Origin: Blattabacterium cuenoti
GTDB lineage: Bacteria > Bacteroidota > Bacteroidia > Flavobacteriales > Blattabacteriaceae
Length of the DNA: 64,000 bases
Direction: 5' to 3'
NCBI RefSeq assembly: GCF_014252375.1
Contig: NZ_CP059221.1
Location: forward strand, 506,001-570,000
A program made the translations under genes and the position numbers. Positions 17,139 to 51,673 of this stretch are shown piece after piece (the stretch's first letter is position 1; each line of letters opens with the position of its first letter). The notes beneath the pieces were generated by a model. The model was not told the DNA's origin and did not search any database. It was given only the letters and a program-made list of their open reading frames with translations.

Positions 17139-18526
17139 TTAAGATATTTTTTCTATATCTATTATTTTTCCTTCTATAGCTATAATAGCTGCAATTAAAG
17201 GACTAACCAATAGAGTTCTTGATTTAGGACCTTGTCTTCCTTCAAAATTTCTATTAGAAGTAGAAATACAATATTCATATGGTGGTATTTTATCTTCATT
17301 CATTCCTATACAAGCAGAACATCCAGGTTTACGAAAATCTAATCCAGATTTATTAAATATTATATCTAATCCTTCTTTTTTTGCTTCATTCATTACTTTA
17401 TTTGATCCAGGAACAATCATTACATTAGTATTATTTGCTTTTTTTTTACCTTTTACAATAGATGCTACTAATCTTAGATCTTCTATTCTAGAATTAGTAC
17501 AACTTCCTATAAAAATATAATTAATTTTTTTACCTATTAAAGATTCTCCAGGTAAAAACCCCATATATTTTATAGATTTATTCCAATTTTTTGAACCATT
17601 TTTTGGAATAAAACCTTTTATTTTAATTCCCATTCCTGGATTAGTACCATATGTAATCATAGGTTCTATTTCATCAGCATTGAATACAAATTCTTTGTTA
17701 AATACTTTATTTGAATCTGTTTTTAATGATTTCCAATATTCTAATATTTTTTTATTTTTTTTTATAAATTTTATTCCTAATTTATCTGTTATGTAATCTA
17801 AAGTTATTTTATCTGGAGAGATTAATCCGCCTTTTGCTCCCATTTCTATACTCATGTTACAAATGGTCATTCTTCCTTCCATGCTAATGTTATTAAAAAC
17901 TGATCCTGAATATTCTATAAAATGTCCTCTACCTGAATTTACTCCTAATTTTGAAATAATATATAAAATAATATCTTTTGGAGTTGATCCATTTTTTAAA
18001 TTTCCATTAATAGAAATTCTCATTTGTTTTGGTTTATTTAATAATAAACATTGTGTAGCCATTACCATAGTAATTGACTAGTTCCAATACCAAAAGCAAT
18101 ACTACCAAAAGCTCCATGTGTAGAAGTGTGACTATCTCCACATACAATTGTCATACCAGGTAATGAGTAACATAATTCTGGACCAATAACATGAACAATA
18201 CCATTATTTTTATGTCCTAATTCATATATTTTTTTTATTCCAAATTTTTTGCAATTTTTTGTTAATAAGTTTATTTGTTTTTTAGATAAACAATCTGAAA
18301 TAATTTTTTGATTTTTTGTAGGAACATTATGATCTGCTGTTGCTATAATTTTATTAGGTCTTAATATAGATAAATTTCTTTTTTTTAATTCCAGGAAAGA
18401 TTGCGGACTTGTTACTTCATGTATATAATGCCTATCTATGTAAATAATGTATAAATTATTAGTTAATTTTTTAACTACGTGACAGTCCCAAATTTTATCG
18501 AACAAAGATTTTGATGTTTTTAACAT
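17139..18526 (-). pseudogene. leuC: 3-isopropylmalate dehydratase, large subunit, split by a frameshift
   Basis: LeuC carries the 4Fe-4S cluster of isopropylmalate isomerase. The first part (18062-18526, 154 residues) covers HEVTSPQSFLELKK through GMTIVCGDSHTSTHGAFG to GTSQLLW and stops at TAA. The second (17139-18068, 309 residues) opens at an ATG overlapping that stop by 7 nt and reads MVMATQCLLLNKPKQMRI onward, with FIGSCTNSRIEDL and PGCSACIGMNEDK holding the cluster cysteines. Family proteins read roughly SQVEMVMATQ across the joint, so one base is missing in a five-base stretch, not in a long homopolymer. The combined length (about 460) is normal. The ATG placed over the stop could allow reinitiation and a two-piece protein; decay is the simpler reading. 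Confidence 0.85.
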
Positions 18527-31425: not shown

Positions 31426-33122
31426 ATGTATTCAAATAAGAAAACAGTACAAATATTAGGAGAAGTTTTAAAATCAAAATTAATTTTCAATATTATTATA
31501 TCACCTGGATCAAGAAATGCTCCAATTATTATACATTTTACTCAAAATAAATTATTTAAAACTTATAGTATTGTAGATGAAAGATGTGCAGGTTTTTTTG
31601 CTTTAGGTATGGCTCAAAAATTAAAAAAACCTGTTGTAATTAGTTGTACCTCTGGATCTTCTGTAGTAAATTATTTTCCTTCAATAATAGAATCCTTTTA
31701 TCAAAATATTCCTATTATAATTGTTACAGCAGATCGTCCTAAAGAATTTATTACGATATATGATGGACAATCTATGAATCAGGAAAATATTTTTCAAAAT
31801 TATGTAATAAAATTCACTCAATTAACTGAAGATGAATCTAAAAGGGGGATATGGTATAATAATAAATTAATTAATGAATCAATAAATGAATGTATTTTAA
31901 AAAATAAACCTATACACATAAATATACCTTTTTCCGAACCACTTTATGGTATTACTAATAAAATAAAAATACATATTAATATTGTAAAAACTTTTTATAC
32001 AGAAACATATATTAAAAAAAAAATCAATTTTTAAATGAAAAAAAAATATGGAATAAATGTAAAAAAAAGATGATATTATTAGGATTAAATAATTTTATTA
32101 ATAAAACTAAACTTACTAAAGTTTTAAAAAAAATTAGTTTAGATGAATCAATAATTATTTTTTCTGAAACAACTTCACAAATAAATAGTAATAAATTATT
32201 TTCTAATATAGATCAAATTGTTTATGGTATAGACATAAATAAATGGATAAAAATATTAAAACCAAATATTTTATTAACAATAGGAATAAATATATTATCT
32301 AAAAATATAAAATATTTATTAAGAAAATTCCCACCTAAATATCATTGGCATCTTGGTAATAATTGTAAAAATTATCCTGATACTTATTTTAAATTAAGTT
32401 CATACTGGAATATAAATCCTGAATATTTTTTTAAAATAATTGAAAAAAATAAAAATTTTCCTAACTCTAATTATAAAAGAACTTGGGAAGTTTTAATAGA
32501 AGATAAAATAAAAAAGCAAAATTTTTTTATAAAAAAAGAAAAAAATTTTTCAGATTTAAAAGCTCTTTTTTTTATTTTTTCTAAAATTCCTAAAAAATCT
32601 ATTTTACAATTAGGAAATAGTATGATTATAAGATATTACCAATTATTTATTAGTAAAAGAAAATATAAAATACAATCTTATTGTAATAGAGGCATATCAG
32701 GAATAGATGGTAGTGTATCAACCGCAATAGGATATTCAATAGTAAGCAAAAAAATTGTAACATTAATTATTGGAGATATAAGTTTTTTTTATGATAGTAA
32801 TGCCTTATGGAATAATTATACACCAAAAAATTTTAGAATAATACTTATAAATAACAAATGTGGAAATATTTTTAAAATAATTTTAAATAAAAAATTTTCA
32901 AAAAAAACATTTAATTTTTTTGAAACAAAACATAATTTATGTGCATATGAATTATGTAAAATGTATAAATGGAATTATAATAAAGTATCTGATTTAAATA
33001 GATTAAGATATATTTTATCATTTTTTTGGAAGAAATCCAATTATCCATTTTTATTAGAAATAGATACAAAAAATTGTAATAATGAAAATATTTTTAGAAA
33101 CTTTTTATATAGTTCTAAATGA
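31426..33122 (+). pseudogene. menD: Menaquinone biosynthesis SEPHCHC synthase, frameshifted
   Basis: MenD, a thiamine-diphosphate enzyme, joins isochorismate and 2-oxoglutarate in menaquinone synthesis. The first part (31426-32034) has IISPGSRNAPIIIHF, VDERCAGFFALGMAQ with the cofactor-activating Glu, and SCTSGSSVVNYFPS. The second (32070-33122 from its first ATG) has YCNRGISGIDGSVSTAIGYS and LIIGDISFFYDSNALWNN, the ThDP-Mg motif. The first stops at TAA 32032-32034 behind a T5 run; one added T joins it to an open frame reading LNEKKIWNKCKKKMILLGLN, just as the family reads (xIWNxxKKKMIL). The joined length of about 565 is normal and all cofactor motifs are retained. Menaquinone is the respiratory quinone in this group, so loss would matter; rescue or sequencing error should be considered. 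Confidence 0.85.
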
Positions 33123-48071: not shown

Positions 48072-48959
48072 TTATTCTCCATTTATAACATTATCTACTG
48101 TTAGACCTATTTCATCTGGAGAATAAACTATATGTACTCCAAGTTTTTTTAAAATATCCATTTTTACTTGTGCAGTTTCTATTTTATTTTTTATAATTGC
48201 TCCTGCATGTCCCATTATTTTTCCTTTTGGAGCAGTTTTTCCAGCAATAAAACTTATAATAGGCTTGTTCTTTAATTTATGATAATTAATCATCCATTTA
48301 ATTGCATCTATTTCTTGTTGTCCACCTATTTCTCCAATAATTACAATACAATTAGTGTCACTATCTTCTAAAAATAGTTCTAGAATTTTTTTAATATCTG
48401 TTCCAATAATACTATCTCCACCTACTCCAATTGCAGTAGAAATACCATGTCCCATTTTCATAATTTGATCTGCAGCTTCATATGTTAAAGTCCCAGATCT
48501 AGAGATAATTCCTACATTACCTTTCTTTTTAAAAACAGAATTTGGCATAATTCCTACTTTTGATTCTTCTGGTGAAATAATACCAGGACAATTAGGACCA
48601 ATTAGAATAGTTTTTTTGTTTTTTAAGTAATATTTAATTCTTATCATATCTAATACAGGTATTCCTTCTGTAATGCAAACTATTATTTTTATATTTTCAA
48701 ATATAGATTCTATAATAGCGTCAGTAGAATAATCAGCAGGAACAAAAATTACACTTATATATGCTTCTGTATTATTTACTGCATCTTCAACTGTATTAAA
48801 AACAGGTACATTCATAATTTTTTTACCTCCTTTCCCTGGAGTAACTCCACCAACTATATTAGTACCATAATTTATCATTTGTTCTGTATGAAACATCCCT
48901 TCTCTTCCAGTAATACCTTGTACAATAACCTTATTATTTTTCTTAATTAAAATACTCAT
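48072..48959 (-). CDS. sucD: Succinyl-CoA synthetase alpha subunit
   Basis: SucD with SucC interconverts succinyl-CoA and succinate with ATP formation in the TCA cycle. KVIVQGITGREGMFHTEQMI binds CoA, GPNCPGIISPEESKVGIMP follows, and the phosphorylated His lies in KIMGHAGAIIK. The 295 residues are normal. sucC is not in this window. The gene begins 2 bp after the end of lpxC-fabZ; in many Flavobacteria lpxA and efp stand between these, so the junction looks like a deletion. Confidence 0.95.
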   Translation of the reverse strand: MSILIKKNNKVIVQGITGREGMFHTEQMINYGTNIVGGVTPGKGGKKIMNVPVFNTVEDAVNNTEAYISVIFVPADYSTDAIIESIFENIKIIVCITEGIPVLDMIRIKYYLKNKKTILIGPNCPGIISPEESKVGIMPNSVFKKKGNVGIISRSGTLTYEAADQIMKMGHGISTAIGVGGDSIIGTDIKKILELFLEDSDTNCIVIIGEIGGQQEIDAIKWMINYHKLKNKPIISFIAGKTAPKGKIMGHAGAIIKNKIETAQVKMDILKKLGVHIVYSPDEIGLTVDNVINGE

Positions 48960-48961
48960 AA

Positions 48962-50215
48962 TTAATTTTGTAAATTTATTTTTTTTCGTACTATTTTGGC
49001 TATCATTTCTGCTTCTACAACTATATTTTTTTTTACATATCCAATTCCTTTCATATAAATTATTCCTATTTTAATAGATTCTAGTAAATATACTTTAAGT
49101 ATAATAATATCTCCAGGAACAACTTTATCCTTAAATTTTACTTTTTCTATTTTTATTAAATAAGTTGAATATAATTCAGGATTTTTAACTTTACTTAAAA
49201 TTAATACTCCTCCTACTTGAGCTATTGCTTCAATTTGTAATACGCCAGGCATTATTGGTTCATTTGGAAAATGTCCGTTAAAAAAATATTCATTAATTGT
49301 AACATTTTTTATTCCAATTATTTGATTATCAGTTAATTCTATAATTTTATCTACAAATAAAAATGGAGGTTTATGTGGTAATATTTTTTTTATATTCTTT
49401 ATATTAAGAATTGGTTTTTTGTTTAAATCTATTTTAATAATTTTCAATTTATTTAAAATAATAATTTTTTTTATTAATGTTTTTAATAATTTTATAATTA
49501 TAGCATTATCAGGATTATAAATTATAATTTTTCCTTTTATTTTTATTTCTATTAATGCAAATAAACCTATTATGTCTAATAGAATGTGTTTAACTACTTC
49601 ATTGGTGTCAAAATTATTTGATTTTTCTTTTAATATACAGAATGATCTTGATTTAGCAATTAATTTAAATTGATTTTCTTTTCTAAAAAAAGCATTTTGT
49701 GGATTTATATTATTTGATTCAAAATCTATAAAAATTATTATTTCAAATTTATTAGAAGGAATAACAATAATTTCTCCATCTGTTTTTCTATTTTTTATTG
49801 AAAAGAATTCTTTTATTGAAAAAAATTTTTTTTCTGCATCTTGTTCTATTATACCAACTTTTTCTATGGCATCTACAAATAACTTTGATGATCCGTCTAA
49901 AATAGGTACTTCTACATTATCTAATTCTATAATTACATTATCTAAATCCATACCATTGAGAGCTGCAATAAGATGTTCTACTGTATAAATTTTTAATCCA
50001 TTTTTTTCTAAAATTATTCCTTTATCAATTTCTTTTTGAATAAAAGAATTAAAACTTACCTTTACACAAGGCCTTTTGTATAAATCTACTCTTACAAAGA
50101 TAAATCCTGTAAATATTGGTGCAGGATTTAAAATAATGTTAACTTTTTTTCCAGTATATAAACCAAATCCTTTAAAATAAATCTTTTTTGCAATAGTTTT
50201 TTGTTTTTTAAACAT
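48962..50215 (-). CDS. fabZ: LpxC-FabZ fusion with an eroded LpxC half
   Basis: Bacteroidetes fuse the lipid A deacetylase LpxC to the fatty-acid dehydratase FabZ. The FabZ half (about residues 270-417) is intact: ILPHKPPFLFVDKI, and FNGHFPNEPIMPGVLQIEAIAQ with catalytic His 315 and Glu 329. The LpxC half retains TVEHLIAALNGMDLDN (Glu 80, zinc His 81) and VVKHILLDIIG (His 210, Asp 214), but the Asp of the usual GD after this motif is Leu 218, the PGHA/SGHA catalytic His is replaced (PDNA, Asn 237), and some 28 residues between the SRTF-type motif and His 210 are missing. I infer that LpxC activity is lost and the fusion persists for FabZ. Usual fusion length is about 460; here it is 417. Confidence 0.88.
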   Translation of the reverse strand: MFKKQKTIAKKIYFKGFGLYTGKKVNIILNPAPIFTGFIFVRVDLYKRPCVKVSFNSFIQKEIDKGIILEKNGLKIYTVEHLIAALNGMDLDNVIIELDNVEVPILDGSSKLFVDAIEKVGIIEQDAEKKFFSIKEFFSIKNRKTDGEIIVIPSNKFEIIIFIDFESNNINPQNAFFRKENQFKLIAKSRSFCILKEKSNNFDTNEVVKHILLDIIGLFALIEIKIKGKIIIYNPDNAIIIKLLKTLIKKIIILNKLKIIKIDLNKKPILNIKNIKKILPHKPPFLFVDKIIELTDNQIIGIKNVTINEYFFNGHFPNEPIMPGVLQIEAIAQVGGVLILSKVKNPELYSTYLIKIEKVKFKDKVVPGDIIILKVYLLESIKIGIIYMKGIGYVKKNIVVEAEMIAKIVRKKINLQN

Positions 50216-50518: not shown

Positions 50519-51673
50519 TTATATAATATCTGATTCTATATCTCCTATCTTTGGAAAAAAATTTAATATTTTTTCTTTAATTATTTCTTCATAAGAAAAA
50601 AAATTGGATAAATCTCCTATATCAACTATTTTTAGTTCATATTCAATAATTTTTTTTTTATAATTAAACTTTTCAAAATTTTTAAATCCAATTTCTAATG
50701 AAGAAATAGTTCCATTTGTTTTTATTTTTACGTTTCTATATATTTTATCTAATAAAATTTTTTTATTTTTTCTTATATATGAATAAAGTTTATAATTTTT
50801 TTCTATATTATTTTTACAAGAGATTAAGTATAAAGAAATAATAATAGATAAAGTATGATATTTTCTAACAAAATTTTTATTTGTATCTTTTGGATAATTT
50901 CCAGCTTCAATTAATATGTATGAATATCCTTTTTTTTGTAAAAAATCACCAGTTGCATTAGGATAATATTTATTAGAATATCTTCCAACTGAACAAATAG
51001 ATGGAATAATTTTTTTTATTTCTTTTGTTATTTCATATATTATCCCCATAGATTTAATTTTTGAATTATAAATTTTATTTTTACAAATAGATAATGATAA
51101 AGGGGATAAAAAAGATATTATAGCAGGATTAAATTTTTTATTATCAACATTATATATTCTTTTTTGGTCATGAAGATTAAATAATATATTTGGATTTTCT
51201 TTTTTTATCTCTTTGAACAATATATTAATTTCTGGAGATATTAGTTTTATAGAATCTCTGTTTAAATCTATGTTCATAGCATTTCGTCTTTGAAAATATT
51301 CTGATCCATCAGGATTTAACATAGGAATAAAAAAAATAGTAAAATTATCGAAAAATAACTTTATTAGTTTATTATTTTTTTTTTCTAAGAAAAAATTAAG
51401 TATATCAATTATTGATTTTGTTCCTGTTGTTTCATCTCCATGCATTTGAGACCAAAAAAAAATTTTTATTTTTCCGTATCCACATTTTATTTTAAATATT
51501 TTTCTATATTTTACGGAATATCCAGCAGTTTCAATAGAAAAAATTTTTTTATTTCTATATTTTTTTAAAATTTCTATTAAATCAGAATTTTTAAAAATTT
51601 TTGATTTATTTATATTTTTTTCTTTGAAAGAATCATAATCTTTCGCTATTGATTTAATATCAAAAAAAAACAT
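50519..51673 (-). CDS. M14-family zinc carboxypeptidase
   Basis: The zinc site of M14 peptidases is visible: SQMHGDETTGTKSI (His and Glu ligands) and LFNLHDQKRIYN (His ligand), with NPDGSEYFQRRNAMNIDLNRD as substrate-binding region and YILIEAGNYPKD carrying the catalytic Glu. The 384-residue protein is of the usual length for the flavobacterial family. No signal peptide is seen, so it appears cytoplasmic. Peptide or cell-wall turnover are both possible roles; the substrate is unknown. Confidence 0.82.
   Translation of the reverse strand: MFFFDIKSIAKDYDSFKEKNINKSKIFKNSDLIEILKKYRNKKIFSIETAGYSVKYRKIFKIKCGYGKIKIFFWSQMHGDETTGTKSIIDILNFFLEKKNNKLIKLFFDNFTIFFIPMLNPDGSEYFQRRNAMNIDLNRDSIKLISPEINILFKEIKKENPNILFNLHDQKRIYNVDNKKFNPAIISFLSPLSLSICKNKIYNSKIKSMGIIYEITKEIKKIIPSICSVGRYSNKYYPNATGDFLQKKGYSYILIEAGNYPKDTNKNFVRKYHTLSIIISLYLISCKNNIEKNYKLYSYIRKNKKILLDKIYRNVKIKTNGTISSLEIGFKNFEKFNYKKKIIEYELKIVDIGDLSNFFSYEEIIKEKILNFFPKIGDIESDII

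Follow-up and report, generated by a model that had tools for sequence, protein, structure and literature searches.

The lpxC-fabZ locus

The analyzed window is a stretch of 64,000 nucleotides from the 574-kb genome of Blattabacterium cuenoti. Members of Blattabacterium are obligate endosymbionts of cockroaches. The window contains an ORF encoding a fusion of LpxC and FabZ, in which Pfam and NCBIfam profiles place LpxC at residues 5–197 and FabZ/FabA at residues 279–403; 3–255 and 270–417, respectively, are used as working domain limits. The features of the gene and its neighbors are as follows (window coordinates).

48962..50215, minus strand: lpxC-fabZ fusion gene, 417 amino acids, with an LpxC half that is probably catalytically dead (ORF, family profiles, and alignment)
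49841..50209, minus strand: LpxC domain I, residues 3–125, conserved (pooled dN/dS 0.068)
49631..49840, minus strand: first part of LpxC domain II, residues 126–195, relaxed (dN/dS 0.177)
49607..49630, minus strand: collapsed site of the acyl-tunnel insert (7 aligned residues, 58–60 in relatives)
49451..49606, minus strand: second part of LpxC domain II, residues 204–255, relaxed (dN/dS 0.151)
49973..49978, minus strand: Glu80-His81 (Escherichia coli E78 and zinc ligand H79), kept in 37/37 fused genes
49586..49588, minus strand: His210 (E. coli zinc ligand H238), kept
49583..49585, minus strand: Ile211, replacing the substrate lysine K239
49574..49576, minus strand: Asp214 (E. coli zinc ligand D242), kept
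49562..49564, minus strand: Leu218, replacing D246
49505..49510, minus strand: Asp236-Asn237, replacing G264-H265
49409..49450, minus strand: linker, residues 256–269 (the 50 codons preceding the ILPH motif of FabZ contain one TTG and no in-frame ATG)
48965..49408, minus strand: FabZ domain, residues 270–417, with catalytic His315 and Glu329 kept (pooled dN/dS 0.047)
48072..48959, minus strand: sucD, 2 bp past the fabZ stop codon, where lpxA and efp lie in the free-living relative Apibacter
50519..51673, minus strand: M14 carboxypeptidase gene, upstream of lpxC-fabZ, where Apibacter has lpxD

The protein exceeds the cut-off of the bifunctional LpxC-FabZ model NF009667 across both halves (484.4 bits versus 465) and the looser cut-off of the Pfam LpxC family PF03331 (180.9 versus 27), but is below that of the LpxC deacetylase model TIGR00325 (143.4 bits versus 187.25). 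For FabZ, NF000582 is exceeded (151.8 bits versus 113) and TIGR01750 is narrowly missed (146.7 bits versus 155.15); the genome is AT-rich. In fusion order, fold, zinc ligands, and FabZ half, the protein resembles the bifunctional enzyme of Bacteroidota and Chlorobi (NF009667 / PRK13188), a fusion that has been described in Chlorobium (PMC516016). Unlike this enzyme, it is found without an LpxC active site, an acyl tunnel, the lipid A pathway, or lpxD and lpxA as neighbors. A sequence search against solved structures returned no LpxC-FabZ fusion.

BamA, Lgt, and SecA lie in the window, as an earlier note on this DNA had stated. Two further places in the window should be noted. Overlapping ORFs of 309 and 154 amino acids (17139-18068 and 18062-18526, minus strand), the first matching only positions 153–463 of the aconitase family, look like a leuC gene split by a frameshift. 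An ORF of 202 amino acids (31426-32034, plus strand) has only the N-terminal domain of TPP enzymes and is possibly a truncated acetolactate synthase gene; the next ORF (32070-33122) has no family match.

Active site and predicted fold of the LpxC half

The LpxC-FabZ sequence was aligned with those of 20 free-living relatives of the same order, and active-site positions are given in E. coli numbering. Five active-site residues are replaced in the window's LpxC. The Lys following the zinc-binding His is Ile211 (K239I), the Asp of the HxxxDxxGD motif is Leu218 (D246L), the PGH motif is PDN at 235–237 (G264D and H265N), and His20 of the GLHTG motif is Tyr (H19Y). The acyl-tunnel insert (insert II) has 7 residues against 58–60 in the relatives, and the G210 region is deleted. 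The earlier note had already described the loss of the Asp after the zinc motif and of the catalytic His, and both hold in the alignment. It had also described a deletion before the zinc motif, which is present, though its size is about 52 residues rather than about 28. What it missed is that Glu80, His81, His210, and Asp214, corresponding to E78 and the three zinc ligands H79, H238, and D242, are intact.

The same pattern extends through the genus, in which 37 of 49 species have an open LpxC-FabZ fusion and the other 12 have FabZ alone. K239 and/or D246, as well as the insert glycines, are absent from all 37 fused genes, while all of them are present in 20/20 free-living relatives. In contrast, E78 and H79 show no exception among the 37 fused genes; H238 has one (Cys, 36/37 kept) and D242 has two (both Glu, 35/37 kept). 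Thus, four of the four positions comprising E78 and the zinc ligands, and none of the seven other active-site positions, are kept in nearly all fused genes (Fisher p = 0.003). Former-pocket residues 211, 218, 236, and 237 differ among lineages, and no new invariant residue appears there. In the insert region, both length (7–41 residues) and composition vary freely.

A deep mutational scan of E. coli LpxC (PMC9842644) left position 246 without any tolerated substitute for Asp; position 264 tolerates only Gly and Ser, position 265 only His and Gln, and at position 239 Met and Asn are the sole alternatives to Lys. The four substitutions K239I, D246L, G264D, and H265N in the window's protein all introduce residues that the scan rejects. 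Its tolerance table is violated at 3–7 positions in 37/37 fused genes and in 0/20 relatives. H265, tuned by D246, is positioned for protonation of the amine, and K239 participates in substrate binding (PMC6286764). Because the active-site residues are lost and the lipid A pathway is missing, as described below, we infer that the LpxC half is catalytically dead as a deacetylase. A sequencing or frameshift artifact, or chance, is ruled out as the source of these changes, since the same state is found in all 37 fused genomes.

In an AlphaFold model of the window's protein (mean pLDDT 87.6), the two-domain LpxC fold is kept: 249 residues of the LpxC half are aligned with Pseudomonas aeruginosa LpxC (Z 31, rmsd 2.3), and the FabZ half is superimposed on FabZ with a Z of 22.5. 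The LpxC half therefore shares the two-domain fold, E78, H79, H238, and D242 with the LpxC deacetylases (PF03331, TIGR00325), and differs from them in the loss of H19, K239, D246, G264, H265, and insert II, and in its score below the TIGR00325 cut-off. The FabZ half, conserved as the earlier note had claimed, has the invariant catalytic residues His315 and Glu329, the motifs, and the fold of FabZ dehydratases (NF000582); no functional difference from them was found, and it is fused or freed depending on the lineage.

Lipid A genes and repeated loss of LpxC in the genus

Profile searches of the 49 assembled Blattabacterium genomes (estimated completeness 92–99%) found lpxB, lpxK, and kdtA in 0/49, with positive controls in Bacteroides and E. 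coli, and nothing above the cut-off for lpxA and lpxD. The matches to lpxA and lpxD below the cut-off (16–25 bits, partial, mostly in ORFs of about 270–410 amino acids) are taken for other hexapeptide-repeat proteins. Chance absence is unlikely because 49 genomes agree. Among the lipid A genes searched for, the fused LpxC half is the sole survivor, and in Apibacter lpxC-fabZ is flanked by lpxD and lpxA (gene names there were assigned by reading the sequence rather than by family profiles). Since lpxB, lpxK, and kdtA are unmatched throughout and lpxA and lpxD stay below the cut-off, loss of the pathway very probably dates to the common ancestor of Blattabacterium. This agrees with the proposal of the earlier note that lipid A synthesis is gone; intact lpxA, lpxD, or lpxB, which it named as evidence to the contrary, were not found in these searches. 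LPS was removed from the biomass in a metabolic model of two Blattabacterium strains (PMC3287516), and no paper on lpxC of Blattabacterium was found in the literature searched.

The LPS export genes present a different picture. LptF/LptG-type permeases are encoded in 43/49 genomes, as a rule two per genome, and an LptD_2 protein of about 740 amino acids in 36/49. The LptD profile PF04453 misses the Bacteroides control, so that its near absence from the genus is uninformative, and PF19838 was used instead. The window's genome has LptF/LptG genes at G000:C1:295933-297024 and 229508-230548 and no LptD match. This would be an LPS export machine without LPS, its genes being kept while the lipid A genes are found in no genome. 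One LptF/LptG gene is seemingly in pieces in each of three genomes (G031:C1:254912-255966, G013:C1:256103-257154, and G010:C1:333443-334536), so decay may be setting in among the Lpt export genes as well.

The 12 species with FabZ alone represent at least nine independent losses of LpxC on a maximum-likelihood tree built from five genes of one locus (FabZ, SucD, Pth, LepA, and GapA), with loss taken as irreversible. Genome G066, in which pth, lepA, and gapA are absent from the 5.7 kb past sucD unlike in the other genomes, has a local rearrangement. The 12 genomes span a range from well-preserved relics with stop codons and frameshifts (G064 and G034) to complete removal of LpxC. In 11 of them, an ATG lies 13–52 codons ahead of the ILPH motif of the freed FabZ; in the remaining one, G014, the sole candidates are a GTG and an ATG placed 2 codons ahead of ILPH. 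Several of these start codons already exist in fused sister lineages, and a linker ATG is present in many fused lineages that retain LpxC. A single FabZ was found per genome. Its rate relative to control genes shows no difference between lineages with and without LpxC (p = 0.93), and no clear site change in FabZ is shared across the losses. The freed LpxC regions of the sister relics G064 and G034 share 75.6% identity and differ by many indels, against 99–100% identity at codon positions 1 and 2 of their FabZ, indicating that freed LpxC decays fast after separation.

Selection on the fused LpxC half and explanations for its retention

Pooled over 12 independent sister pairs, dN/dS of the fused LpxC is 0.108 (2ΔlnL = 699 against 1). 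The two domains differ: with bootstrap intervals, domain I has 0.068 (0.056–0.094), and 0.022 in the window's own pair, whereas domain II has about 0.166 (0.132–0.201), its two parts having 0.177 and 0.151. The pooled pairs give 0.047 for FabZ and 0.068–0.104 for sucD, lepA, gapA, and pth, so that domain I is as conserved as housekeeping genes. In free-living pairs, some of which are near saturation, the values are 0.030 for domain I, 0.026 and 0.009 for the parts of domain II, and 0.015 for FabZ. With FabZ as the reference, and with the free-living pairs partly saturated, domain I shows no relaxation, against about fivefold relaxation in the catalytic part of domain II. Core columns of the fused LpxC are 96–99.5% hydrophobic, and polar columns remain polar. 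This distribution is consistent with constraint on the fold alone. These values indicate that purifying selection acts strongly on the dead LpxC as long as it is fused; the domain is not merely left over.

The earlier note had explained the retention of LpxC by its fusion, with LpxC serving FabZ as a folding partner. The first part is consistent with our results, in that LpxC appears to survive as one polypeptide with FabZ. The second part finds no support: LpxC is not required by FabZ, because at least nine lineages dropped it and kept FabZ with its rate unchanged. The word "hostage" fits better than "partner". The explanation that we prefer, with a probability of about 0.6, is that the fold of the dead LpxC is kept because the cell would lose FabZ along with a misfolded LpxC. 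An ancestor would have lost the lipid A pathway, including the flanking lpxD and lpxA and, elsewhere, lpxB, lpxK, and kdtA. lpxC could not be deleted, since FabZ, needed for fatty acid synthesis, would be translated as its C-terminal continuation. The catalytic and substrate-binding residues would then have drifted off, while the hydrophobic core, the polar surface, and the zinc ligands would remain selected, as less working FabZ would be obtained if the LpxC half misfolded. Where a start codon in the linker permits translation of FabZ alone, the constraint would end and the LpxC region would decay, as it did at least nine times. We infer here that folding, rather than another task, is the selected property of the LpxC half, and FabZ is presumed essential in Blattabacterium. 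Several points count against this explanation: the conservation of domain I is high for folding alone, E78, although no zinc ligand itself, is invariant among the 37 fused genes, the free-living pairs are partly saturated, and many fused lineages have a linker ATG without loss of LpxC.

It is possible, though rather unlikely, that the dead LpxC has a positive structural task, namely in FabZ assembly or solubility or in docking, which some lineages have replaced or dispensed with. The very low dN/dS of domain I, unrelaxed relative to FabZ, and the retention of the zinc site joining both LpxC domains would be expected of such a task; the nine or more independent losses, the unaltered rate of FabZ after loss, and the lack of a clear shared change in FabZ argue against it. 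In a form that we consider equally unlikely, the LpxC half would be a zinc-bound scaffold for fatty acid synthesis, in assembly or docking, a pseudoenzyme born at the loss of the pathway. The scaffold stays under consideration because domain I is very strongly conserved. The traces expected of a scaffold task, or of a new zinc activity, would be largely the same as those of the selection on folding proposed above. Pseudoenzyme domains of multidomain proteins likewise have lost catalytic residues and kept their fold, and a regulatory or scaffold function is ascribed to most pseudoenzymes described so far. The repeated loss of the Blattabacterium LpxC sets it apart from most of them and argues against a required role.

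A new zinc activity is doubtful. The LpxC half would be a re-purposed metalloenzyme, in which zinc and the base E78 act on a smaller substrate without the acyl tunnel, as suggested by the near-constant E78, H79, H238, and D242, whose exceptions (Cys for His and Glu for Asp) can bind zinc. However, the variable pocket positions have gained no invariant substitute, and relaxation is concentrated in domain II, the main contributor to the pocket. It is highly improbable that LpxC is a neutral relic, in which the frame alone is preserved, since stop codons would block FabZ, and the sequence drifts. The frame open in 37 genomes and the freely drifting insert region accord with this, and for the insert region it holds; for the two folded domains it is refuted by dN/dS far from 1 and by the much faster decay of the released copy in the two relics. 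That LpxC is still an active deacetylase, with lipid A made by unrecognized enzymes, is rejected in view of the active-site residues, among them D246 for which no substitution is accepted in E. coli (PMC9842644), and of the missing pathway, despite the score above the NF009667 cut-off and the LptF/LptG genes.

For annotation, the locus is a warning, as the name of a lipid A enzyme is attached to genes of organisms apparently unable to make lipid A. For genome reduction, it is a natural experiment on how a gene fusion slows decay, with 37 species carrying a seemingly functionless domain and at least nine escapes. It separates catalytic constraint from folding constraint, and the dN/dS of about 0.07–0.17, in a domain left without a known reaction, would directly estimate the cost of folding alone. 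A further prediction is that genes in other reduced genomes are lost more slowly when fused.
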